A stretch of DNA of 33,610 nucleotides, taken from a bacterium. Its GTDB lineage: Bacteria > Electryoneota > RPQS01. Shown here piece after piece: positions 16,371 through 33,610 of this stretch. The DNA lies in assembly GCA_018812265.1 (NCBI GenBank), contig JAHJDG010000028.1, positions 1 to 33,610 of the forward strand, in the 5' to 3' direction. How positions within the stretch are numbered: position 1 is the first letter of the stretch; every line of letters starts with the position of its first letter. The position numbers were made by a program, and so were the translations under genes. Below the pieces are notes generated by a model that had not been told where the DNA came from, did not search any database, and saw only the letters and a list, made by a program, of their open reading frames with translations.

Positions 16371-17000
16371 GTGGCCCATCACTCCAATAGGAGGCAGAGA
16401 GGTATTTCGGCAAGCAGCGACATCGAAACCCAGATAGATGAAGCGCAGCTTTTGCGCCGCCTCCGTCGAGGGGATGAAGGGGCCTTTGCCCAACTCGTAA
16501 GTCATTACCGGGCAATGGTTCTGAATCTTGCTGCACGCATGACGGGGAAGCCGGATGGAGCCGAGGACTTGGCGCAGGAGGTCTTTCTGCGGGTTTGGAA
16601 GGCTCTTCCCAAATTCCGCGGGGACTGCAAGCTGTCTACCTGGATATATCGAATAACCATTAACTTATGCATCGCAGAGGGAAAATCAGCCCGAGGGCGA
16701 GCGATGCACATGGCTCTCGATGATCCATGCCTCCTCTCGCAACCGGAAGTGCGAACCGGTAGTCCGAATGAGTATTCCGAGGAGGTTGTGCTGAAAGCCC
16801 GGCTGGGTCCGTTGATTGCGCAGATGCCCGATCATTATCGAACAGCTATCTCATTGTATTATTTGAAGGATTTGTCGTATCAGGAGATTGCCGACATCAT
16901 GAGTGTGCCCATGGGAACGGTGAAAAGCTACCTCTACCGAGGCAAAGCCTGGCTGCGTGACCGCCTCCTCGGCCGAGAGGGTGAGCGGGAGGGACTATAA
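16371..17000 (+). CDS. ECF-family RNA polymerase sigma factor
   Basis: 209 residues in the GTG frame. Sigma region 2 covers about 28-105 (LRRLRRGDEGAFAQLV, DLAQEVFLRVWKALPKF, STWIYRITINLC) and recognises the -10 element; region 4 covers about 145-200 (LIAQMPDHYRTAISLYYLKDLSYQEIADIMSVPMGTVKSYLYRGKAWLRD), a helix-turn-helix for the -35. No region 1 or 3, so group 4 (RpoE-like). Start is uncertain. GTG at 16371 has only a weak GGGTG; a strong AGGAGG at 16389-16394 is perfectly spaced for an in-frame ATT at 16404, which would remove 11 unconserved residues. The TAA overlaps the next ATG (TAATG), so the pair is coupled. Regulon not known. Confidence 0.92.
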   Translation: MAHHSNRRQRGISASSDIETQIDEAQLLRRLRRGDEGAFAQLVSHYRAMVLNLAARMTGKPDGAEDLAQEVFLRVWKALPKFRGDCKLSTWIYRITINLCIAEGKSARGRAMHMALDDPCLLSQPEVRTGSPNEYSEEVVLKARLGPLIAQMPDHYRTAISLYYLKDLSYQEIADIMSVPMGTVKSYLYRGKAWLRDRLLGREGEREGL

Positions 17001-17494
17001 TGAGACTCGAAGAGGCTTATCGCAAGCTGCCGGAGTTCATGGATGGCGGTTTGCCTGATGTAGAACGGCGCGAGATGGAGCGGCTTTTAGATCAGGAGCC
17101 GGCGCTGGCGCAAGCGTTTCACGTATCTCAACAGATTGACGATTGTTTGACCCGGCAGCCGTGGTTGGAGCCGTCACCGCTGTTTGTTCAGAAGGTTCTG
17201 GCCCATACGGAACTGGCCGGCTCTCGATTGTTGCCGCGGTGGGTGAGGATGTGGGAACCGACCAAGGTGGCGGTATCCTTTTTCACGCTGGGTTTGTTGC
17301 TGGCGATTAGCGGCAAGACCCTGTGGAAGATCACGGCGGAAGGACTGCGGCAGACCGGCACTTGGCTGGATACGCTAATTGGCGTGACCCTGTTTGCGGT
17401 GAATCCCCTGGTCGTCCTGGCGGTGATCGTTCCGATTCTGGTGGGTGGATGGGCGATTTGCGTAGTCAGTGGTCGCTGCCGCGCCATGTCATAG
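17000..17494 (+). CDS. Putative membrane anti-sigma factor
   Basis: 164 residues, translationally coupled to the sigma gene (TAATG). The N-terminal cytoplasmic part, EAYRKLPEFMDGGLPDVERREMERLLDQEP (residues 5-34), follows the anti-sigma pattern 'L..y.DG.L....r..ve.lL...P', yet the zinc-binding His-x3-Cys-x2-Cys of ZAS-type factors is absent: the only cysteines are at 49, 154 and 160. Membrane helices lie at about 88-106 and 134-156. By position and topology it should hold the sigma factor at the membrane until an envelope signal arrives. This is inferred from gene order and layout, not from a firm family match. Confidence 0.65.
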   Translation: MRLEEAYRKLPEFMDGGLPDVERREMERLLDQEPALAQAFHVSQQIDDCLTRQPWLEPSPLFVQKVLAHTELAGSRLLPRWVRMWEPTKVAVSFFTLGLLLAISGKTLWKITAEGLRQTGTWLDTLIGVTLFAVNPLVVLAVIVPILVGGWAICVVSGRCRAMS

Positions 17495-17915: not shown

Positions 17916-18347
17916 ATGAATCGAAGAATTTCGCGCAGACGCGGCGAGAAGGGATTTACCCTCATCGAAATCCTCATCGTCGTGGTGATCGTGGCCATTT
18001 TGGCGGCGATTTCCGTGCCGATCTACGTCGAGTACGTGAAGAGTGCTCGGGCATCGGACGCCAAGACTACGATCAATGCCGTCTGGCAGGCGGCTCAGGT
18101 GTACTATCAGGACAAGGGCGACTGGCCGAACACCGTGGAAGACCTGGAGCAGGAGAAGTACCTGGAGATCGCGCAGTCCACGAAGTTGCAGTGGAACTTC
18201 AACATCGTCGGATCTCCGCCGGTCACCATTACCGCCACTTCGACCGAGCAAATGCGGGGCGGCGCCGGCCATTACGTGACCTACAACATTCAGGACGGCA
18301 CCTGGATCGGCTATGGTCTGCCGACCGATGAGGGCGAGGGTGGATAA
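17916..18347 (+). CDS. pilA: Type IV major pilin (prepilin)
   Basis: 143 residues from ATG 17916, with AAAGGAGAG in front. The frame extends upstream to 17835 but that would add an unlikely 27-residue tail to the leader. A basic leader (RRISRRRGEKG) ends in the prepilin peptidase site KG|FTLIE: cleavage after Gly13, N-methylated Phe14, and the conserved Glu18 (mature position 5). A hydrophobic helix ILIVVVIVAILAAISVPIYVEYVKSARASDAKTTINAV follows. The globular part is short (about 90 aa) and has no cysteine pair; GGAGHYVTYNIQDGTWIGYGLP near the end resembles short GspG-like or FCB pilins. It is the only prepilin of the locus with Glu5, hence the best major-subunit candidate. Confidence 0.88.
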   Translation: MNRRISRRRGEKGFTLIEILIVVVIVAILAAISVPIYVEYVKSARASDAKTTINAVWQAAQVYYQDKGDWPNTVEDLEQEKYLEIAQSTKLQWNFNIVGSPPVTITATSTEQMRGGAGHYVTYNIQDGTWIGYGLPTDEGEGG

Positions 18348-18428: not shown

Positions 18429-19511
18429 GTGGCCGAGGTCGCAATCGAGAAACAGATCAACATCTACGAACTTCTGAGGTTCACCGTGGATCAGGGAGCC
18501 TCGGACCTTCACCTTTCGACGGGATCCATTCCGATGATCCGCGTGCACGGGTACATGCGCAAGCTGGCCCTGCCGCGGTCGGACAACGAGACGATGTGGT
18601 CCATCGTCCGCACGGTGCTGAATCGCGATCAGCTTGATCGTTTCGAGGAGATGAAGGAGATTGACTTCTCGGCGAAGCTGGAGGACATCGCGCGGTTCCG
18701 TGTCAACGTGTTCCAGCAGATCAACGGGATGGGCGCGGTATTTCGGGTGATTCCGTCGGAGATCCGTTCCTTTGAGGAGCTCGGGCTGCCCGAAGTCATG
18801 CGAGACTTGTCGGAACGGGATCGCGGACTGGTGCTGCTCACCGGGCCGACCGGTTCCGGCAAGACGACGACGCTGGCGACCATGATTGACTGGATCAACG
18901 AGTACAAGCAGCTGCACATCGTCACGGTCGAGGATCCGGTCGAGTTCTTCCATGACTCGAAGAATTGCATGATGAACCAGCGAGAGCTCGGCGCCAATAC
19001 CCACTCTTTTGCCAATGCGCTGCGGGCCGCGCTTCGCGAGGACCCGGACGTGATTCTGGTCGGCGAAATGCGCGATTTGGAAACCATCTCGCTGGCGCTG
19101 ACGGCGGCCGAGACGGGTCACTTGGTATTGGCTACCCTGCACACGTCCAGCGCGGCCAAGACGATTGACCGTGTCATTGACATTTTTCCGGCGTCGCAGA
19201 AGACGCAGGTCCGTTCGATGCTGGCCGAATCGCTGGAGGCGGTGGTGGCACAGAAGCTGCTGCCGAAGAAGGATGGGGGCGGTCGCGTGGTGGCGTGCGA
19301 GGTGATGATTGCCACGACGGCGATTCGCAATCTCATCCGTGAGGACAAGATCTACCAGATTCCTTCCGTGATCCAAGCCGGCGGCAAGGCCGGCATGCAG
19401 AGTCTCGATCAGGACCTTCTGAGGCTGCTGCACAAAGGACAGATCAGTCGTGAAACGGCCGCACACGTGGCCGAGAATCCCAAGTTGTTTGAAGTCAATT
19501 TAACGGAGTAG
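18429..19511 (+). CDS. pilT: PilT, type IV pilus retraction ATPase
   Basis: 360 residues; hexameric cytoplasmic ATPase that depolymerises the pilus for twitching and DNA uptake. N-terminal PAS-like half: SDLHLSTGSIPMIRVHG (25-41). Walker A GPTGSGKTTT at 139-148 with Lys145; Asp box VTVEDPVEF; Walker B ALREDPDVILVGEMRD; His box TGHLVLATLHTSSAAKTIDRVID. The PilT-specific AIRNLIRE motif required for retraction is present at about residue 291-298 (TTAIRNLIREDKIYQ). Length fits PilT (about 345-370). GTG start with GAGGG about 8 bases upstream, 81 bases after the pilin stop. Confidence 0.96.
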   Translation: MAEVAIEKQINIYELLRFTVDQGASDLHLSTGSIPMIRVHGYMRKLALPRSDNETMWSIVRTVLNRDQLDRFEEMKEIDFSAKLEDIARFRVNVFQQINGMGAVFRVIPSEIRSFEELGLPEVMRDLSERDRGLVLLTGPTGSGKTTTLATMIDWINEYKQLHIVTVEDPVEFFHDSKNCMMNQRELGANTHSFANALRAALREDPDVILVGEMRDLETISLALTAAETGHLVLATLHTSSAAKTIDRVIDIFPASQKTQVRSMLAESLEAVVAQKLLPKKDGGGRVVACEVMIATTAIRNLIREDKIYQIPSVIQAGGKAGMQSLDQDLLRLLHKGQISRETAAHVAENPKLFEVNLTE

Positions 19512-19540: not shown

Positions 19541-20038
19541 ATGAGGCTGAAGCGAACATGGCAGAGCGGCGCAGCCGATTTGATATCAGTGGCAGTCGGC
19601 ATGGCCATTCTGTCCATTGTAGTGGCGGGAACGTCGGCGGCCATGATCTATGGCCGGGACGCATTGCTTCGCGAGGAACACGCCAAGGCGGCCGCCTACC
19701 TGCTGCGCGGAGAGATGGAGAAATTCCAGGCCGGCTTGCAGGTGGTGGATGACGCGCGAAATGCGGATTACGGGCGGAGTTACTTGAACACCCTCGAGAC
19801 CTCGGCCCCCATCGCCATTGATACCAGAGCCGATCGGGGCGGCGACCATCAACAGGTGTTCGTAACGATTCGGCGCGAGAGGGTTCGATACGTGGACCCC
19901 CTCGTACAAGGGAGTGGCTACATCATCGAGGCCAAGGCCACCTGGACTGAACCGGACCTGGCAGGCAGTCGGCGAACCGGCGGATCCCAGCGGGAAATCA
20001 AGTTCAAGACCGCGACGGTCGTGAAGCAGGAGCTGTAG
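19541..20038 (+). CDS. Minor-pilin-like protein 1 (PilV-type, no Glu5)
   Basis: 165 residues from ATG 19541, with a strong GGAGGGAGGG upstream; the frame's earlier TTG (19520) is inside that site. A short basic leader (MRLKRTWQSGA) is followed by a hydrophobic helix ADLISVAVGMAILSIVVAGTSAAMIYG. Aligned with normal prepilins, cleavage would be after Ala11 (GA|ADLIS), so the -1 residue is Ala, not Gly, and position 5 is Ser, not Glu. The globular part has HQQVFVTIRRERVRYVDPLVQGSGYIIEAKATW, beta-strand like, as in PilV/GspI-type pseudopilins. First of three co-oriented minor pilin genes. Confidence 0.65.
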   Translation: MRLKRTWQSGAADLISVAVGMAILSIVVAGTSAAMIYGRDALLREEHAKAAAYLLRGEMEKFQAGLQVVDDARNADYGRSYLNTLETSAPIAIDTRADRGGDHQQVFVTIRRERVRYVDPLVQGSGYIIEAKATWTEPDLAGSRRTGGSQREIKFKTATVVKQEL

Positions 20039-20094
20039 CACAGGACGTCTCGGGTTCGAGCGGATCAGTCCCGAGAGAAAGGGAGGGACATTTC

Positions 20095-20898
20095 ATGAAG
20101 ACACGAGCGCCAACCGGCGCAAAGGAACTGCGAAGCGCGCGAGGCCGACGATGGCAGCGCGGCTTCACACTGGTCTCCACGGCCATCAACTTCACCGTTG
20201 CCGGGGTGGTATTGACGGGTGCATGGATCGCCTACAACAACATGCAGGTCCAATGGAAGGTGACCAACGCGGATCGGATGATGGATCAGTACGCCGCGTC
20301 GGCCATGCAGGAACTGACCAACGTCCTGAGTTGGGGCTGGGGGGGGGAAGGAATTCAAGGCGGCCGGAACACCCGCTGGAAGTTCTCGATCAATGATCTG
20401 GTCGAGGAACATGGACTCATGCAGCAGTGGCGATACCGTACGATCCCCGCACTGGGATATCGCTACATCGAGCTTACCTGCCAGCCACAGAAGGGTATTC
20501 TGTTCAACGGTGGTCAACCGAAATGGGTCCACGGGTATCTCTGGTCGGGATCCACTCCCAGATACCTGCAGAGCCGGGTCTTCGATTCACGGGACCGCAT
20601 GACGGTGGAAGGATTCGGGATAGACTACTACTTGTACCCGGAGTTTCCGGCGCAAAATTCGCGAGAAATCGGTGCCGCCCAGATCATGTTGAACCGGCGG
20701 ATGCTGGCGAAGGTCACGATCACCCTCCACTACACATACAACGCTCCCGAATTTTTCGGCAAGACCACAACTCTGTTCGGGTCGCGCTATGTGCGGGAGC
20801 GGAAGTATGAGACGACGGTGTGCATGCGCAACTGGTGGGTGGAGAACAACGAGTACTACGATCACGTGCTGGGACGTTCCGGCTACGGGAGCGGATAA
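20095..20898 (+). CDS. Minor-pilin-like protein 2 (PilW/PilJ-type, no Glu5)
   Basis: 267 residues; ATG with AAGGGAGGGAC upstream. A long basic leader of 23 residues ends QRG|FTLVS; Phe24 is the expected mature N-terminus and Ser28 takes the place of Glu5. The helix is TAINFTVAGVVLTGAWIAYNNMQVQW. The globular domain is rich in Tyr/Trp (LSWGWGGEGIQGG, LGYRYIELTCQPQKG, GIDYYLYPEFPAQ) with beta-strand spacing, close in size to PilW/GspJ-type minor pilins, and has two cysteines (TC at about 148 and VCMRNWW near 241). No family assigned with certainty; the layout next to a PilX-like gene supports a pilus tip role. Confidence 0.65.
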   Translation: MKTRAPTGAKELRSARGRRWQRGFTLVSTAINFTVAGVVLTGAWIAYNNMQVQWKVTNADRMMDQYAASAMQELTNVLSWGWGGEGIQGGRNTRWKFSINDLVEEHGLMQQWRYRTIPALGYRYIELTCQPQKGILFNGGQPKWVHGYLWSGSTPRYLQSRVFDSRDRMTVEGFGIDYYLYPEFPAQNSREIGAAQIMLNRRMLAKVTITLHYTYNAPEFFGKTTTLFGSRYVRERKYETTVCMRNWWVENNEYYDHVLGRSGYGSG

Positions 20899-20914
20899 CG
20901 AAAACAACGCCTGT

Positions 20915-20945
20915 GCCGGCCGCGGTGCGAATGGCCGCGGCCGGC
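20915..20945 (+). terminator. GC-rich hairpin after minor pilin 2
   Basis: GCCGGCCGCGG (20915-20925) and CCGCGGCCGGC (20935-20945) form a perfect 11-bp stem with a 9-base loop, 17 bases after the stop. No T-run follows, so it could be an mRNA 3'-end stabiliser or an attenuator between minor pilins 2 and 3 rather than a true terminator. The remaining 245 bases to 21190 hold nothing recognised. Confidence 0.4.
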
Positions 20946-21189
20946 CGGCGAAGAGATAGACGCGATCAGCATGAAAGAGGAGTGCGCCGCAGCCGGATAG
21001 GGGAACGGTGCAACTCGTAAGGTCCGACGGGAAGTGCGCGTCCGTGCGCAGCCCCGCCCGCAAGATTCCCATCACTCGATCCCTCGACCGATGATGCGGA
21101 TTTTCGGGAGTGGTTGCCGCAGCGCCCGGACGCGAAGTTCCAGGAGGGCTGAGTTGCCGAGTTCAATAAACCGGCGAAGGGAAGGCACA

Positions 21190-22683
21190 ATGAACGGCAT
21201 AATTGCTCATACACCCGCGCGACGACAGGGCGGGTTCATGCTGGCAACCGTGATGGTTCTGGTGACCGTGCTGCTGGCCACGGGGATCGCCTTCATGCGG
21301 TGGTCGGTGGACGAATCCACACAGTCCGCCGAATTGGTGGCTGCCACGCAGGCCTACTATTTAGGCCAGATGGGCATCGTCGAGAAGGGATTTGCCTGGC
21401 TGCGATCTATTCAGGCCTCGCAACTGCCGATTGGCGAGACCATATTGGAGGGGAAGCGAGTAGACGGGTACGGCTACTACGAGAACGTGAGCATTGTCTA
21501 CCTCCCCTCGCAGACGGGGGGCGATTTCTGGACGCAGAAACGCATCTTCCGCATCTCGGCGGTGGGAGTGGTGCGAATTCCGTTCTATACCGGCCGCCAG
21601 AGCGACTACAAGAATGTTCGACGAAAGGCCGTGTTGTACGTGGAAGTCCGGAATTTCGCCGACTACATGTATCTTTCCGATGAGGAAATGACGTGGTTTG
21701 GAGACCGGATCAAGTTCTGGCACGGAGATACGCTGGAAGGTCGCGTACACTCCAACAGCCAAATCGCCATCATGCAGGATCCGGTGTTCTACGATCAGGT
21801 GAGCACGACCGAGACGGATTTCTGGCGAGGGAGTGGCTACAATCCGCAGTTCCGGGGTCCCCCGCCGGTGTTCCGCGTCAAGGCGGTGGAGATTCCGCTG
21901 GTGGCGGAGAATTTGCGGGCCACCGCCGCCCAGCAGGGGCATTCCTACCCCGGGGGCAACATGACCTATTATGCCCGCTTTCAAGGTGCGACCTGCAAGA
22001 TGTGGAAATGGCCGACCGGTACTGAAATTGACTCCGCGGACAACTGGATTGTTACCCTCACGGAAAATACGTGCATTTTCGTGGATGCTCCATTATGGAT
22101 GCATGGGCAGGTCCAGGGGGCAGTGACGATCGGTTCCTCGGAGATCGTCCGGCTTATGGATGACATCCGCTACGTGGACGCCAATGCCCGTACGGGAATT
22201 ACGCCGTACTCCTCGACCAACATCATGGGGATCGTATCGGAACGGGACGTGAAGATCGCCAATACGGTAGTCAACGGCCGGGAGAATTCCAACGGTCTTG
22301 GCCTCAACCAGACGAACACGGCCTTCACGGATATCGTCATCACGGCGGCGATTGTGGCCTTGGGCTTCAGCTTCACATTCGAGAACCAGAACGATCCGGA
22401 CAGCGGCTACGTCAGCAGCACGATTCCCGATGACCGCGGGCAGATCTGGCTGTTCGGTTCGGTCACGCAGATGCGGCGCGGCTACGTTCATCGTTCGACC
22501 AACAGTTCCACCGGATATCTGAAGAAATACAAATATGACACGCGGCTTCTCACCAAGCGACCGCCGTGTTTCTTTGACGTAACGGATGAAGAAGGCCACG
22601 CGCTGTTCAACATCGTGCAGTGGGGTCAAGGGATGACGGACCAGGCCGACGACGCGCGCGGGAACATCGTTCGTTACAATTGA
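21190..22683 (+). CDS. Minor-pilin-like protein 3 (PilX/GspK-type with DUF4900-like domain, no Glu5)
   Basis: 497 residues from ATG 21190 (AAGGGAAGG upstream); the open frame begins at 21034 but those 52 residues are not pilin-like. Leader MNGIIAHTPARRQGG ends at GG|FMLAT, so Phe16 is the mature N-terminus and Thr20 replaces Glu5. The helix TVMVLVTVLLATGIAFMRW is followed by AATQAYYLGQMGIVEKGFAWL, the PilX/GspK pattern 'A..AAEAG...'. The body contains FWHGDTLEGRVHSNSQIAIMQDPVFYDQVS and NIMGIVSERDVKIAN...ITAAIVALGFSF, which I associate with DUF4900, a domain seen on pilus-like proteins of FCB candidate phyla. Likely a large tip adhesin. Confidence 0.72.
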   Translation: MNGIIAHTPARRQGGFMLATVMVLVTVLLATGIAFMRWSVDESTQSAELVAATQAYYLGQMGIVEKGFAWLRSIQASQLPIGETILEGKRVDGYGYYENVSIVYLPSQTGGDFWTQKRIFRISAVGVVRIPFYTGRQSDYKNVRRKAVLYVEVRNFADYMYLSDEEMTWFGDRIKFWHGDTLEGRVHSNSQIAIMQDPVFYDQVSTTETDFWRGSGYNPQFRGPPPVFRVKAVEIPLVAENLRATAAQQGHSYPGGNMTYYARFQGATCKMWKWPTGTEIDSADNWIVTLTENTCIFVDAPLWMHGQVQGAVTIGSSEIVRLMDDIRYVDANARTGITPYSSTNIMGIVSERDVKIANTVVNGRENSNGLGLNQTNTAFTDIVITAAIVALGFSFTFENQNDPDSGYVSSTIPDDRGQIWLFGSVTQMRRGYVHRSTNSSTGYLKKYKYDTRLLTKRPPCFFDVTDEEGHALFNIVQWGQGMTDQADDARGNIVRYN

Positions 22684-22942: not shown

Positions 22943-24010
22943 GTGTTCGGACTGAAATCCAATTTGCGCGTGGGGCTTGACATTGGCTCCCACGCCATCA
23001 AACTGGTCGTAGCCGAGAAAGGCAGCCACGGCAAACTGCGGTTGGTCAAGGCCATCTCGCGCGATCTGTACGCGGGCCAGGACAAGTTTGACATGGACGG
23101 CCCCAAGAAGACGCAGGTCGTTCCGCTGCTTTTGGAGATGTTTCAAGAGATCGGCGTGCGTCCGAAGCGAATCTCGCACTTGGGAAGCTGCATCGGCGGA
23201 ACCAATCAAGCGGCCAAAGAGATTCGCACGCTGCAGCTATCGGAGGATGAAATGGCGTCCTCGATTCTGCAGGAAGCGCGCAAGCACGTTCCGCTGGACG
23301 GCAGTGAGTCGGTGGTGGACTATCAGATCCTCGGCGAGGATCCGAAGGAAGCCGATAAGCTACGGGTGCTGGTGGCCGCCACCACCAAGCGGATGTTCGA
23401 CGCGCACGTGGACATGCTGCGGGAAGCCGAACTCAAGCCGGGGGTGCTGGATTTGGAGCCGCTGGCGGCCGCGAATTCCTTTCTGGGACACGTGGAGCTG
23501 CCGGATGACGGCGTGGTGGTGTTCCTCAATATCGGTGCGAGACGAACGAATCTCTTGATTCTCGGCCGCAAGGACATGTTCTTCAGCCGTGATTTGCCGG
23601 TGGGGGGATACGCCTTCACGGAAGACATCATGAAGAAGTTGAACGTTAAGTTTGCGGAGGCCGAGGAGATCAAGAAGACTCGCGGGATTCAGATCAAGGA
23701 GCATGGAGCCGGCGAGGAAGCGCCCAGCTTCGCGCTGGCCGACAAGTCGCCGATCGAGAAACTGGGAGACGAGATCAACCGGTCGCTCCGCTACTACGTG
23801 AAGGAGACCGGACAGAGCTTCTTCAACCACATCGAGATGGTGGGCGGCGTGGCGGAGTCGTCGGAGGTGAGCGAGTACTTGGCGAACAAGTTCAATATCG
23901 AGGTGCGGTCTTTCGATCCCTTCCTGTTCCTGGAGGGAGTGCAGGACGTGCGGCACCGCCCGCAGTACGCGGCGGCCGTTGGTCTGGTACAGCGTGCGCA
24001 GGGAAGCTAA
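22943..24010 (+). CDS. pilM: PilM, actin-like T4P assembly protein
   Basis: 355 residues; cytoplasmic actin/FtsA-like ATPase fold that binds the PilN N-terminus and links the pilus alignment complex to the motor. The nucleotide fold starts with RVGLDIGSHAIKLVV (residues 9-23), then an SHS2-like insert (LSEDEMASSILQEARKHVPLD), a second phosphate motif VVVFLNIGARRTNLLIL, and the adenosine motif IEMVGGVAESSEVSEYL; these are in canonical PilM order and the length is normal. GTG start with GAGGAGTAA at 7 bases. Start of the pilM-N-O-P-Q block, 18 bases before pilN. Confidence 0.93.
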   Translation: MFGLKSNLRVGLDIGSHAIKLVVAEKGSHGKLRLVKAISRDLYAGQDKFDMDGPKKTQVVPLLLEMFQEIGVRPKRISHLGSCIGGTNQAAKEIRTLQLSEDEMASSILQEARKHVPLDGSESVVDYQILGEDPKEADKLRVLVAATTKRMFDAHVDMLREAELKPGVLDLEPLAAANSFLGHVELPDDGVVVFLNIGARRTNLLILGRKDMFFSRDLPVGGYAFTEDIMKKLNVKFAEAEEIKKTRGIQIKEHGAGEEAPSFALADKSPIEKLGDEINRSLRYYVKETGQSFFNHIEMVGGVAESSEVSEYLANKFNIEVRSFDPFLFLEGVQDVRHRPQYAAAVGLVQRAQGS

Positions 24011-24028
24011 ACCGAGTAAGAGTGCCAC

Positions 24029-24622
24029 ATGGTCAAGCAATTCACGATTAACCTAAACAAGGGCGAGGGCGAGGTCGCGCTGCGTTCCCGCCGGCAGGAG
24101 CGCCGTTCGTATCTGGTGCTCAGCCTGTTCGTTCTGGTGTTTATCATCCTGGGCGGCCTCACTTGGGCGCAGAACAACGCGATGAACGAGGTGATCCGCC
24201 AGCGTCAGGCGAAATTGGACCGCATTCGTTTTGAGCTTGACAGCCTCAAGCGCGAAGGGACGAAGGTCTCGAAAGAGGACGTGATGGCGCTGGCGCGACT
24301 GGAGAATGAACGGTTTTTGTGGGCGCGTCGTCTCGAGAAGCTGGCGGAAATCCTGCCCGCCGACATCGCGGTTACCGGTTTGGAATACCAGAACAAGGTA
24401 TTCACCATTCGGGCGCATGCCAAGGTGGATTCCAGTCAGAAGGAATTCGAGATCATCTCCAAGTTCATCGAATTGTTGAAGTCAACCCCGGAATTCCGGC
24501 AGGGTCTGTTTGAGATTCGATTCAACCAATCGGTTCGCAAGGTGGTACAGGACCAGGACGTGTTGATTTTTTCGGTGGAGTGTCTGACGGCTGATCCGGA
24601 GCGGCGGTCGCGTCGCGGCTAA
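24029..24622 (+). CDS. pilN: PilN, inner-membrane alignment protein
   Basis: 197 residues with the PilN layout: short cytoplasmic N-terminus, one membrane helix (about 29-47, YLVLSLFVLVFIILGGLTW), coiled coil (VIRQRQAKLDRIRFELDSLKREG) and a ferredoxin-like periplasmic domain (LPADIAVTGLEYQNKVFTIRAHAKVDS). The conserved N-terminal PilM-binding motif INLLP is degenerate here: it reads INLNK at residues 7-11. The last part carries ILLxSTPEF-like IELLKSTPEFRQG. Placement between pilM and pilO supports the call. Confidence 0.85.
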   Translation: MVKQFTINLNKGEGEVALRSRRQERRSYLVLSLFVLVFIILGGLTWAQNNAMNEVIRQRQAKLDRIRFELDSLKREGTKVSKEDVMALARLENERFLWARRLEKLAEILPADIAVTGLEYQNKVFTIRAHAKVDSSQKEFEIISKFIELLKSTPEFRQGLFEIRFNQSVRKVVQDQDVLIFSVECLTADPERRSRRG

Positions 24623-24674
24623 GGCTCGCGGGATGAATGCAGCGTCGAAGCGGTAATCAAAAGGATCCAGGCAA

Positions 24675-25229
24675 ATGAGGAAGGTATTCGTTGGGTTGAT
24701 CCTGCTGGCCATCATCGGCATCGGATTCTACTACTATCAAGGGCAGATGTACGGTCCGAAACCGGCGAAAGTGCGGGAACTGGACCGGATCATTCAGCAG
24801 GAGAACGAGAAGTTGATCTCGGCGCAGATCATCGCCAATGAACTGCAGCACGTGACGCGGCTGATCGAGGGGAATCTGGCGCAATCGGCGCGCGATTCCT
24901 TGGCCGAAGACGCCTCGCTGCCGTTTATGGATCAGGTAACGGACATTCTGCGCAAGTATGACATAGACTTGGTCAGCATCGAGCCGGGGTCGCGCAAGAA
25001 TTTCGCGGACTATATCCGCACGCCCTATCGGATGGAAGTCCAAACGAGCTATCCGTCGCTGGTGAGCTTCCTGAACGACGTGGAGAAGAACAACCGGCTG
25101 GTGACGGTGGATCATTTGGATTTGGCGAGTACGGTCAAGCGAGTGCAGACCTTGGCCAAGAGTGGAAAACTCGATAAGCGTCCGATGACGATCACGCTCT
25201 CGACGCTAACTCTGCTCAAGCACAAATAA
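24675..25229 (+). CDS. pilO: PilO, inner-membrane alignment protein
   Basis: 184 residues: single N-terminal membrane helix (about 4-20, VFVGLILLAIIGIGFYYYQG), coiled coil (KVRELDRIIQQENEKLISAQIIANELQHVTRLIEGNL, residues 33-70) and a ferredoxin-like domain with LPFMDQVTDILRKYDIDLVSIEPG and the YP-x-L-x-x-F-L motif SYPSLVSFLNDVEKNNRLVTVDHL, hallmarks of PilO. It forms a heterodimer with PilN in the periplasm. Slightly shorter than P. aeruginosa PilO (207 aa). 52 bases after pilN, 18 before the next gene. Confidence 0.9.
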   Translation: MRKVFVGLILLAIIGIGFYYYQGQMYGPKPAKVRELDRIIQQENEKLISAQIIANELQHVTRLIEGNLAQSARDSLAEDASLPFMDQVTDILRKYDIDLVSIEPGSRKNFADYIRTPYRMEVQTSYPSLVSFLNDVEKNNRLVTVDHLDLASTVKRVQTLAKSGKLDKRPMTITLSTLTLLKHK

Positions 25230-25247
25230 CGAGGACGAGTTCCGCCC

Positions 25248-25793
25248 ATGAGACAGCGGGTGAATGTGTTATGGGGCATCATTGTGGCGTTGCTGGTGGC
25301 GTGTGTGATTTGGATCGGCTTCAGCAACTACCGGATGTCGAAACAGGTTGAGAATCTTCGCAGCCGCAAGATCACGCTGGGAACCGACCAGCAGCTCCAA
25401 GAGACGGTCAACACTCTGGAGCGAAATCTTCAGGACCGGCTGGTCTATGTGACCTCGGTGGAGACCGATCCCCTGGACCTGACGCGGGTGATTCAATCCA
25501 AGTCGTTCCTGGCCAGTCTGGGTCTGCGCGAGACTCTTGAGCAGCAGGGTCGGATGCGTCTGTCCTGCACGGTGATAGGCGAGGATCCGTCGGCGGTGGT
25601 CAAGTTCATGGGCCGCAGCCACATTCTGCACCTTGGAGACACCTTCAACGGATTCAAGGTGGAGGGAATCACCGCGGCGCAGATGGTGCTGACCAAGGGC
25701 GGTTCGCGGCTGGTTCTCATCAATGAAGCGGCGCCCGAGGAAGAGCTCTCGGAACGGGCCGGTGCAACGTCGGTGTCGGGCGAGAACTACTGA
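25248..25793 (+). CDS. PilP/GspC-like periplasmic coupling protein
   Basis: 181 residues in the position of pilP. The N-terminus has a membrane helix (about 9-27, WGIIVALLVACVIWIGFSN) and then a coiled coil (MSKQVENLRSRKI...LQETVNTLERNLQD), unlike the lipobox and disordered linker of classical PilP. The C-terminal part, ILHLGDTFNGFKVEGITAAQMVLTKGGSRLVLINE (about 125-160), has the PilP/GspC homology-region pattern that contacts the secretin N0 domain. It thus appears to join a PilO-like anchor to a PilP-like domain and would connect PilN/O to PilQ. The hydrophobic LVAC is not a likely lipobox because more hydrophobic residues follow. Confidence 0.7.
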   Translation: MRQRVNVLWGIIVALLVACVIWIGFSNYRMSKQVENLRSRKITLGTDQQLQETVNTLERNLQDRLVYVTSVETDPLDLTRVIQSKSFLASLGLRETLEQQGRMRLSCTVIGEDPSAVVKFMGRSHILHLGDTFNGFKVEGITAAQMVLTKGGSRLVLINEAAPEEELSERAGATSVSGENY

Positions 25794-25806
25794 CGTGACG
25801 GGCGGC

Positions 25807-25821
25807 CCCATTTCAAATGGG
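25807..25821. repeat. Small palindrome upstream of pilQ
   Basis: CCCATTT, C, AAATGGG is a perfect 7-bp inverted repeat in the gap before pilQ, 54 bases before its start. As RNA it would give only a short stem. It may be an operator or chance. Confidence 0.25.
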
Positions 25822-25874
25822 ACAATTTGGATAACGAAAATAAACCAACCACTTGCTTCTGAGGTACATTTCTG

Positions 25875-27335
25875 TTGAGCCTTGCACAGCAATTCCTTCC
25901 ACGCCTCTTCCGGAGAGGCTATCCCACACCGCGCAGCACGCTGACGATGCTCGTCGTGCTGATGGCCGCCTGGGTCGCGGTGATACCCGTGCAGCAAGGA
26001 TCGGCGCTGGCTCAGACTTCGCTGGCAACAGAGGAGGGACTGAGCCGCCTGGTAACCATTGACGCCGACGACGCGTTCCTGCCTTCGGTTCTGGCCATCC
26101 TTGCCGAGAAGAGCGGCTACAACATCGTAACCGGTCCGGGCGTCAACAAAGAAGAACGGGTGTCCGTTCATCTCAAGGACGTTCCCATCGAGCAGGCCAT
26201 GAATCTGGTGGTCCGCGCGGCGGGGCTGTCCTATGAGATTGTCGGCCGGTCGTTTCTGGTGGCGCCGGCCAAGCAGCTCAAAGAGCAAGTCGGACTCACG
26301 TCATACGTGATTGAGCTGAAGTACACCGACGCGCCCACCGTATTCAAGATGCTCAGTAAATTCAGCGCCGAGATCTCGATTGACACCACCGGCAACAAGC
26401 TCCTGCTGATCACCAGTCCCAAGGTGATTTCGGACATTCAGAGGGTCGTGGAGCAGGTGGATCGCCCGGCCCTGCAGATTGTTCTGGAATGTCGAATTAT
26501 CGAAGTGGCAGTGGACGATGAGCAGCAACTGGGCATGGACTGGAACCGGCTGTCGCAGTTACAGACGGTGCTCATGGAGTCGCCGGTGGATCCCAACGGC
26601 ATTCGGGTGAACAACGAAGGAACTCCCCACCTGACCGGTCTTGATCCCTCGCAGAAGGGTCGAGTTCCGACCACCATGCCGTACTTCCCGCTGGAGACCC
26701 GCCGGCTCGGATATTGGTCCAAGCAGGTGACGGCCTTCGAAGTGGCGTTGGACCTGTTGCTCAAGCGAGGCCGCGCCGAGGTGTTGGCCAACTCATCGGT
26801 GGCCACGCTCAATAACAAGGAAGCGACGATTCAGGTGGTGGACGAGATTCCCTACGTAGCCCGCAGCGGCGGCGTCGGCGGTCAGGTGCAGATCGAGCGA
26901 ACGATCGTGGGAGTGCGTCTGGCGGTCCGTCCCAAGATCAACAGCGACGGATTCATCACGACCGAGATCACTCCCGAGCTGTCGTCCATCTTCCAGTTTA
27001 TCGAGTCGGGGGACACGCAGCTGCCGTGGGTGAAGCGGCGCTTGACCAATACGACGATTCGTATTCGCGACGGCGAAACGGTGATTATCGGCGGTCTGCT
27101 GGGTGTGGAATCCACCAAGACGGTGCACCGCGTTCCGTTTTTGGGTGACCTTCCGTTCGTGGGTTCGCTTTTCCGGCACACGTCGGATCTGACGCGCAAG
27201 ACCGACCTGATTATTCAGGTGACTCCACACATTCTGGGCACGGGCTACGAAATGGAGCTCCCGCCGCGAGTGAAGGAAGTGGAGCAGAAGTTCCTGCCCC
27301 AGTCGTCCGATACTGAATCGGAAAGTGAAGAGTAG
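25875..27335 (+). CDS. pilQ: PilQ outer-membrane secretin
   Basis: 486 residues; forms the outer-membrane ring through which the pilus passes. TTG start with GAGG about 12 bases upstream; an alternative ATG at 25947 (residue 25) would begin at the signal helix LVVLMAAWVAVIPVQQGSALA. N0/STN domain at about 54-125 (IDADDAFLPSVLAILAEKSGYNIV...), N1 domain at about 135-195 (SYVIELKYTDAPTVFKML...VVEQVDRP), and the secretin core from about 197 (IVLECRIIEVAVDDEQQLGMDW). The core has VLANSSVATLNNKEATIQV, VGVRLAVRPKIN and the signature VPFLGDLPFVGSLFR before LIIQVTPHIL. The AMIN domains seen in proteobacterial PilQ are absent, which explains the short length. Confidence 0.93.
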   Translation: MSLAQQFLPRLFRRGYPTPRSTLTMLVVLMAAWVAVIPVQQGSALAQTSLATEEGLSRLVTIDADDAFLPSVLAILAEKSGYNIVTGPGVNKEERVSVHLKDVPIEQAMNLVVRAAGLSYEIVGRSFLVAPAKQLKEQVGLTSYVIELKYTDAPTVFKMLSKFSAEISIDTTGNKLLLITSPKVISDIQRVVEQVDRPALQIVLECRIIEVAVDDEQQLGMDWNRLSQLQTVLMESPVDPNGIRVNNEGTPHLTGLDPSQKGRVPTTMPYFPLETRRLGYWSKQVTAFEVALDLLLKRGRAEVLANSSVATLNNKEATIQVVDEIPYVARSGGVGGQVQIERTIVGVRLAVRPKINSDGFITTEITPELSSIFQFIESGDTQLPWVKRRLTNTTIRIRDGETVIIGGLLGVESTKTVHRVPFLGDLPFVGSLFRHTSDLTRKTDLIIQVTPHILGTGYEMELPPRVKEVEQKFLPQSSDTESESEE

Positions 27336-32038: not shown

Positions 32039-33610
32039 ATGCGTGAGAAGATTGGCGAAATTCTGATCCGGCAGGGTCATATTAATTCTCAGCAACTGAA
32101 CGACGGCCTGGCCCGACAGAAGGACACCAAGAAGAGGCTCGGGGAGACATTGGTTGCGCTTGGTCACGCGACCGAAGACAGGGTCTTCGCCGCCCTGGCC
32201 GACCAGTGGCAGGTGCCGTTCATCCCGGCGGACAAGCTGATTGCGGCCGACAAGGACGTGCTACAGCTTGTGCCGGAGGTTTTCGCCCGTCAGAATCGGG
32301 TGATTCCGCTGCATCTCAATCAGGCGGCGCTGGTGGTGGCGATGGCGGATCCCGACGACATCGTGGTGATTGACCAGTTGCAGAAACTGAGCAAGCGCGA
32401 AGTGGACGTCCGGCTGGCCGCACCCACGGCGATTCTGGCCGCCATCGAGAACCTCTACTCGAAGATTCGCAAGACCGCCGAAGTCGGCGAAGCGCTGGGG
32501 GACCTTCAATTCTTCGCGCCGTCCGACGAGGATGAAGAAGGTCTCGTGGACATGACGCGAACGGTGGGAATCGAAGACGCGCCGGTGGTGAAGCTGGTGA
32601 ATCTGATCATCGGCGACGCCATCAAGGAGCGCGCCACCGATATTCACGTCGAGATTTTCGATGAGGGCATGGTCATCCGCTTCCGGATTGACGGAGTGCT
32701 GCAGGAGATCATGCGGCCGCCGAAGGCGTCTCACCCCGGAATCATCTCGCGCATCAAGATTCTCTCCAAGCTGAACATCGCCGATAAGCGACTGCCGCAG
32801 GACGGCCGATTCACGATCAAGGCTCCCGATAAGGAGCTCGACGTTCGTGTGTCGGTGTTGCCCACGGTGGCGGGCGAGAAGATCGTGCTGCGACTTCTCG
32901 ACAAATCGGGATTCGCCTACAGTCTGACGACGCTCGGATTCGAAGACGAATTGCTGATGATCTTTCGCCGCTGGATTCGCCAGCCGTACGGAATGATCGT
33001 GATTTCGGGACCGACCGGTTCGGGAAAGAGCACGACGCTGTTCGCGGCGATTCAGGAGGTCAAGAGCGAGGAAGACAACATCACCACCGTCGAAGACCCG
33101 GTCGAGTACCACATTCCCGGCGTCAATCAGGTGCAGACCAAGTCTTCCATCGGACTGACGTTCGCCCATTCGCTGCGTTCGATTCTCCGTCAGGACCCGG
33201 ACAAGCTGCTGATCGGTGAGATTCGCGATGAAGAGACGGCCGATATCGCCGTGAAATTCGCGCTCACCGGCCACCTCGTATTTTCGACGGTGCACGCCAA
33301 CGACGCGCCGTCCACCATCACTCGTTTGCTGGACATCGGTGTGCCGCCGTTTCTGGCGGGATCGGTGCTCAATCTGGTGATGGCGCAGCGATTGGTGCGG
33401 CGCATCTGCGAGCACTGCAAGGAGCAATACGATCCGGACGACCACGAGCTGGCGGTGCTGAATATTACGCGCGAGGTTCTGGAGGACCGGGTCTTCGATG
33501 TCATTGGTGAGGTTCTCTCCCTCAACGATCTGAACCTGCCTGAGCTGCTACGAGAGGCGGCCCACGACCCGCGCCGTTTGGAGGAATACCTCGACCGCAT
33601 CGAGAAAGTG
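32039..33610 (+). CDS. pilB: PilB, type IV pilus extension ATPase (partial, C-terminus off window)
   Basis: 524 codons, open at the right edge. ATG at 32039 with only a weak AGAGAC upstream. Residues 1-60 are an MshEN-like domain with two copies of the motif 'R/K-(L/I)-G-x-x-L-(V/I)-x-x-G...L...Q': KIGEILIRQGHINSQQL and RLGETLVALGHATEDRVFAALADQ. MshEN domains bind c-di-GMP. The second N-domain runs to about 290 (RATDIHVEIFDEGMVIRFRIDGV). The ATPase has Walker A GPTGSGKST (324-332), Asp box TVEDPVEY, Walker B LRQDPDKLLIGEIRDEETADIA and His box TGHLVFSTVHANDAPSTITRL. The zinc motif's first half is CEHC (457-460); the second CxxC is not seen in the next 64 residues. Extension of the pilus is its role. 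Confidence 0.93.
   Translation, partial: MREKIGEILIRQGHINSQQLNDGLARQKDTKKRLGETLVALGHATEDRVFAALADQWQVPFIPADKLIAADKDVLQLVPEVFARQNRVIPLHLNQAALVVAMADPDDIVVIDQLQKLSKREVDVRLAAPTAILAAIENLYSKIRKTAEVGEALGDLQFFAPSDEDEEGLVDMTRTVGIEDAPVVKLVNLIIGDAIKERATDIHVEIFDEGMVIRFRIDGVLQEIMRPPKASHPGIISRIKILSKLNIADKRLPQDGRFTIKAPDKELDVRVSVLPTVAGEKIVLRLLDKSGFAYSLTTLGFEDELLMIFRRWIRQPYGMIVISGPTGSGKSTTLFAAIQEVKSEEDNITTVEDPVEYHIPGVNQVQTKSSIGLTFAHSLRSILRQDPDKLLIGEIRDEETADIAVKFALTGHLVFSTVHANDAPSTITRLLDIGVPPFLAGSVLNLVMAQRLVRRICEHCKEQYDPDDHELAVLNITREVLEDRVFDVIGEVLSLNDLNLPELLREAAHDPRRLEEYLDRIEKV

Follow-up and report, generated by a model that had tools for sequence, protein, structure and literature searches.

The window, that is, the 33,610 nucleotides of contig JAHJDG010000028.1 analysed here, comes from a 3.5 Mb assembly in 235 contigs belonging to the uncultured KSB1/Calditrichota-like bacteria. 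Its forward strand carries, in order, a sigma factor, an anti-sigma factor, pilA, pilT, three genes here called A, B and C, then pilM, pilN, pilO, pilP, pilQ and later an extension ATPase. The major pilin PilA (17916..18347) starts canonically as KG/FTLIE (the slash marks the prepilin cleavage site), so with Glu at mature position 5 (Glu5), and matches PF07963 N_methyl at 9.7e-9; the retraction ATPase PilT (18429..19511) matches TIGR01420 at 2.2e-147. The genes pilM to pilQ fill 22943..27335, M, N, O and Q being assigned by Pfam or NCBIfam matches and P from where it lies and from its conserved orthologues in the clusters, and a PilB/GspE-type extension ATPase, identified by reading its Walker A motif GPTGSGKST, occupies 32039..33610 and runs past the window end. 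With pilA, pilT, pilMNOPQ and an extension ATPase found together, A, B and C are minor pilins within an ordinary type IVa pilus cluster of the form pilA-pilT-A-B-C-pilMNOPQ, and the order from pilA to pilM is kept in nearly all clusters examined. The sigma-70-type factor and the probable anti-sigma gene lie directly 5' of pilA (16371-17494) and are kept there in most clusters of the family. A search of the genome for PilY1 gave no match, as did the same search of control genomes, which makes the negative result no sign of absence.

Protein A (19541..20038), protein B (20095..20898) and protein C (21190..22683, from an ATG) are all on the forward strand and have purine-rich ribosome-binding sequences just 5' of their starts; the reading frames, coordinates and N-terminal readings of these three and of pilA are as the first-pass annotation gave them. 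A would take the I (GspI/PilV) place, B the J (GspJ/PilW) place and C the K (GspK/PilX) place, and these letters are given from gene order, size and Glu5 status because neither A nor B matches a named I or J family and the AF2 models of A and C have no significant PDB match. For A no informative or significant match came from Pfam, NCBIfam, PDB sequence profiles or Foldseek against the PDB. Curated PilV, GspI, PilW and GspJ models give weak pilin matches in some orthologues, and for B the database and PDB profile comparisons gave weak pilin matches only, again in some orthologues (to TIGR02532 and PilV/ComGD-type models). The long α1 helix and C-terminal sheet of a type 4 pilin are seen in the AF2 models of both A (helix 5-59 and a sheet of four strands, pLDDT 88) and C (helix 3-60 and a large beta-rich body, pLDDT 83).

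The first-pass annotation had noticed that A, B and C of the window all lack Glu5 while PilA keeps it, and this holds well beyond the window. Twenty-nine orthologous clusters from eight families of the phylum (f1, the window's family, to f8) were aligned, the genomes being draft MAGs, some with truncated contigs, and states were taken at columns 2 and 5 of A and at column 5 of B and of C. In f1 (8 clusters) A has Asp at column 2 and Ser, Ala or Thr at column 5, B has Ser and C has Ala, Ser or Thr. Column 2 of A is also Asp in f2 (1 cluster), f3 (8 clusters) and f7 and f8 (1 each), all with Gln at column 5 of A and Glu at column 5 of B, and with Met (f2), Met, Leu or Gly (f3) or Ile (f7, f8) at column 5 of C. 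The ten clusters of f4, f5 and f6 have Thr, Ser or Asn at column 2 of A, Glu at column 5 of both A and B, and a non-acid residue at column 5 of C. Five extra clusters read by eye (L151, L152, L153, L154 and L155/L156) follow the same pattern with one exception, G023, where Asp replaces Glu at position 5 of A and the acid is thus kept. PilA has Glu5 in all 33 clusters with a readable start (27 from among the 29 aligned sets, plus the five read by eye and one outside the phylum).

All eight f1 clusters lack Glu5 from A, B and C together, and they do so despite mean identities of only about 41% for A and B and 51% for C, so on sequence grounds the triple loss is real and due neither to chance nor to decay. 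A pseudogene or assembly error as the cause of the missing Glu5 was likewise set aside, the same states being found in seven other genomes of the family. Eleven f1 genomes were covered. Two (G004 and G008) lack a match to A and have just a distant homologue of PilM, so that they may be without this pilus, through loss or because their assemblies miss it; a third without an A match (G006, 56% complete) has a close PilM, so there it is probably just the assembly that lacks the cluster.

The N-terminus of A, MRLKRTWQSGA/ADLIS, can from its own sequence be read as SGA/ADLIS or SG/AADLIS. However, the helix of A aligns gap-free to orthologues with a canonical G/xTxxE start, most rows sharing Gly-Thr landmark columns at 19-20, and in that register the Ser (19586..19588) occupies the Glu5 column, which holds S/A/T in f1, Q in f2, f3, f7 and f8 and Glu in f4-f6, and the Asp (19577..19579) occupies the Thr2 column. 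Among the Asp-bearing relatives the residue just before the canonical site varies between G, S, A and T, and the one further upstream (in the window the codon 19568..19570) is Gly in all 20 Asp2-type clusters. Since the last residue of a prepilin leader is Gly or Ala (PMC10191384) and the upstream Gly is invariant, the simplest reading is that A is probably cleaved after this Gly, which would make the mature protein one residue longer, with Ile as residue 5 and Ser as residue 6; in either register there is no acid at 5 or 6, and Asp stands at 2 (or 3). The leader of A would then end in Gly like those of B (RRWQRG/FTLVS) and C (ARRQGG/FMLAT), which do so directly; in all three the short basic leader is followed by some 20 hydrophobic residues, as in a class III signal peptide of type 4 pilins. 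The Ala at −1 reported earlier is thus correct in one register but probably a one-residue register effect, and as the true cleavage residue it was judged unlikely, with S or T there in relatives and the invariant Gly one upstream.

That the canonical −1 residue is S or T in many relatives when leaders should end in Gly or Ala (PMC10191384), and that an Asp sits near the start of the membrane helix, could also mean that the shifted Gly and the Asp block cleavage and that A is an unprocessed, inner-membrane anchored assembly factor. This we regard as quite improbable, given that the upstream Gly is invariant, that A retains a short K/R leader, some 10-14 residues long, that orthologues in f4-f6 carry the canonical G/xTxxE at the same place and that the model of A has the pilin α1-plus-sheet layout.

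The three subunits differ in what has replaced the Glu. The hydroxyl residue proposed for all three is present in each protein of the window genome but does not carry across f1, where A has S/A/T and C is mostly Ala, with Ser in two clusters and Thr in the window; Ser is fixed only in B, and a common hydroxyl rule at position 5 was rejected accordingly. In B, Ser5 (codon TCC, 20176..20178) is found in 8/8 f1 genomes from six genera, against Glu in 21/21 aligned clusters outside f1. Just five of the first 32 columns of B are invariant in f1 (G-1, F1, S5, G19 and W21), columns 4, 6, 7 and 9 beside Ser5 vary, and its codon is TCN in seven clusters and AGC in one, so that it is Ser itself that is retained across a switch of codon set. 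In A the change is tied to column 2, which is Asp in 19/19 clusters without Glu5 and Thr, Ser or Asn in the 10 with it, with no mixed case.

These patterns bear on whether selection was simply relaxed, in that A and B might preassemble through their periplasmic domains, leaving Glu5 neutral and free to drift, with Ser, Thr and Ala merely small and Asp2 without a special role. Position 5 of A does vary among S, A and T in f1 and that of C varies widely, and TcpB is able to initiate assembly without Glu5 (PMC5207764). However, drift sits badly with a Ser5 in B that stays invariant in 8/8 clusters through a codon switch amid variable neighbours, and with an Asp column in A invariant in all 19 clusters lacking Glu5, and so relaxed selection is a credible but lesser possibility.

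Protein C is the least unusual of the three. Its Thr5 (21247..21249) lies in a column that is acid-free in every family (29/29 clusters), its mature form has about 480 residues and it is the last gene of the three, all as in K-type subunits; GspK, PilX of Pseudomonas, Neisseria and Myxococcus, and ComGG are K-type proteins without Glu5 (PMC7541494; PMC8727766; PMC10790768). Judged from the alignments, its phylum-wide lack of Glu5 is this known K-type property. Comparison of C with GspK and PilX by sequence profiles and Foldseek returned only DUF4900, below the cut-off, and nothing in the PDB at E <= 0.001. Its C-terminal, DUF4900-containing module also occurs in paralogues without a pilin N-terminus (L020-L025 and others, for example G000:C160), some of which have an apparently ordinary signal peptide. 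In several clusters C is duplicated in tandem (L030:8925-12294, L095, L098, L099, L102 and L106), which suggests variable tip subunits.

The Glu5 usual for I- and J-type subunits, missing from A and B in f1, is present in orthologues of A in f4-f6 and of B in f2-f8. Such homologues within the same cluster had been named beforehand as evidence that would count against the observation; the alignment finds them in other families and none inside f1, and because they lie only outside f1 there is little doubt that Glu5 was lost stepwise and in a lineage-specific manner. One packing rule shared by all three, as once suggested, does not fit losses that are stepwise and differ among A, B and C. In a tree of pilT, pilM, pilN and pilO both f1 and f1+f2 are supported 100/100; on it the shift at position 5 of B needs one change and the exchange of Asp2 for Glu5 in A needs two. 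The sister family f2 is intermediate, with Gln5 and Asp2 in A and Glu5 in B. With only one (B) or two (A) independent changes, the pattern is strong but falls short of proving coevolution statistically.

Quite what a minor pilin set without Glu5 can do follows from how the residue is used. When a subunit joins from below, its Glu5 forms a pair with the N-terminus of its upper neighbour (PMC5207764; PMC5059446). As Glu5 acts in the lower subunit, a subunit without it can still be docked onto from below and has lost the ability to dock beneath another. The minor pilins of related systems are ordered H-J-I-K with K lacking Glu5, and homologous sets assemble into one complex (PMC10790768). Very probably A, B and C belong among such tip minor pilins, as I-, J- and K-like proteins that would prime the type IVa pilus and then remain at the tip, with C at the top, A next, B lowest and PilA below. 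As none has Glu5 they would be unable to dock beneath the terminal subunit of a growing fibre and could enter only while the tip complex is being built, whereas PilA with its Glu5 would still join from below. Such a set would start a pilus and could not interrupt one, an expectation taken from TcpB of Vibrio cholerae, where the Glu5Val protein still initiates pili and enters the growing pilus inefficiently (PMC5207764). Retraction could rely on PilT, encoded next door. A role of A, B and C at the tip only is evenly balanced in our judgement, and a K-I-J tip complex whose members function only as first subunits, the best explanation overall, stands at about even chances too. Against it, E5A in ComGD or ComGE impairs pneumococcal pili (PMC8727766), so that such subunits do not in general tolerate the loss of Glu5. 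The earlier proposal of a tip complex whose members all cap the fibre keeps its first half, through gene order, the K-like C and the literature; capping has to be amended, in that subunits without Glu5 can still be docked onto from below.

Each protein lacking Glu5 could in principle be a first subunit, and A, B and C might then be alternative tips, each capping its own pilus, with no single complex. Across families, however, the three genes stay side by side in a constant order, homologous sets of minor pilins assemble as a single complex (PMC10790768), and Glu5 is retained by A and B of other families with the same type of cluster, all of which makes separate tips highly improbable.

Within the proposed K-I-J complex the interface of A with B may have changed its chemistry. 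Between neighbouring subunits, Thr2 of the one is set against Glu5 of the other (PMC5059446). C lacks Glu5 throughout the phylum, A has swapped Thr2/Glu5 for Asp2/Gln5 in five families, and in f1 B then exchanged Glu5 for a fixed Ser5 and A its Gln5 for S/A/T. A Thr2(upper)-Glu5(lower) pair would so become Asp2(A)-Ser5(B), the sides of the pair being exchanged, with Asp2 neutralising the N-terminus of A itself and making Glu5 of B unnecessary. Asp2 would have come first and Glu5 of B would have become dispensable afterwards, which the families having Asp2 in A with Glu5 in B fit as intermediates; the same co-occurrence in f2, f3, f7 and f8 counts against the explanation. Also against it is a homologue of A from another phylum (G230, L157:5404-6141), which starts DRGA/TMLPSLVVG and has Gly-Ala before the helix and Ser in the Glu5 column but no Asp2; a separate loss of Glu5 there is possible. 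A narrower rule of the A/B interface, with Asp2 of A facing Ser5 of B, may hold, and the contact itself is tentative and rather less likely than not. Doubtful, and a little more so, is the full proposal of a tip without any Glu5/N-terminus salt bridge, in which the carboxylate has switched sides at one interface and all minor pilins are limited to initiation.

The system most alike is GspH-I-J-K and its pilus counterpart FimU-PilV-PilW-PilX (PilHIJK), also a short minor pilin operon beside pil genes in the order I-J-K, with a large last subunit without Glu5 and an expected tip-priming role; the window cluster differs in having no H-type gene, in the loss of Glu5 from A and B in f1, and in the lack of any significant sequence or fold match of its proteins to GspI, GspJ or GspK. 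That only GspK-type subunits lack Glu5, as the first-pass annotation held, is right for the T2SS but not beyond it, for PilA of Streptococcus sanguinis, structurally of the I-type, lacks it too (PMC9934059). Together with PilB and PilC, its large modular partners, that protein makes up a tip complex of three subunits (PMC9934059), but there only PilA is described as Glu5-less and PilC has Glu5, while here all three lack it; no sequence relation to the proteins of the window is apparent. TcpB likewise shows initiation intact without Glu5 (PMC5207764), but it is an engineered case of one T4bP initiator, whereas here three T4aP minor pilins are naturally affected in a system with PilT.

A published review expects at most one pilin without Glu5 in any type IV filament or T2SS, since the topmost subunit alone can dispense with it (PMC6370729). 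Against that expectation there are three in f1 and two in each of four related families, and every cluster read shows the same state. The literature, which was partially covered, yielded no description of an entire minor pilin set lacking Glu5 and no paper on the minor pilins of KSB1 type IV pili. These lineages are natural experiments on whether Glu5 serves fibre docking, charge neutralisation in the core, or both, and the intermediate families supply an ordered series, E5/T2 to Q5/D2 to Ser5 in B, that could be rebuilt in a laboratory pilus system.

At the ends of contigs the same genome has a further set of minor pilins (L004, G000:C9:74-154, and L006, G000:C182:34019-34093), with a PilV-like start GISMIE in the former and PilW-like GVTLLE and PilX-like GLVMVV starts in the latter. 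Here Glu5 is retained in the V- and W-types and absent from the X-type. C182 also carries, at 24461, another PilM homologue, a distant one. The genome encodes a prepilin peptidase with CxxC motifs, and since it is the single match found, the two minor pilin sets probably share this one enzyme, as far as an assembly that is 97% complete can show.
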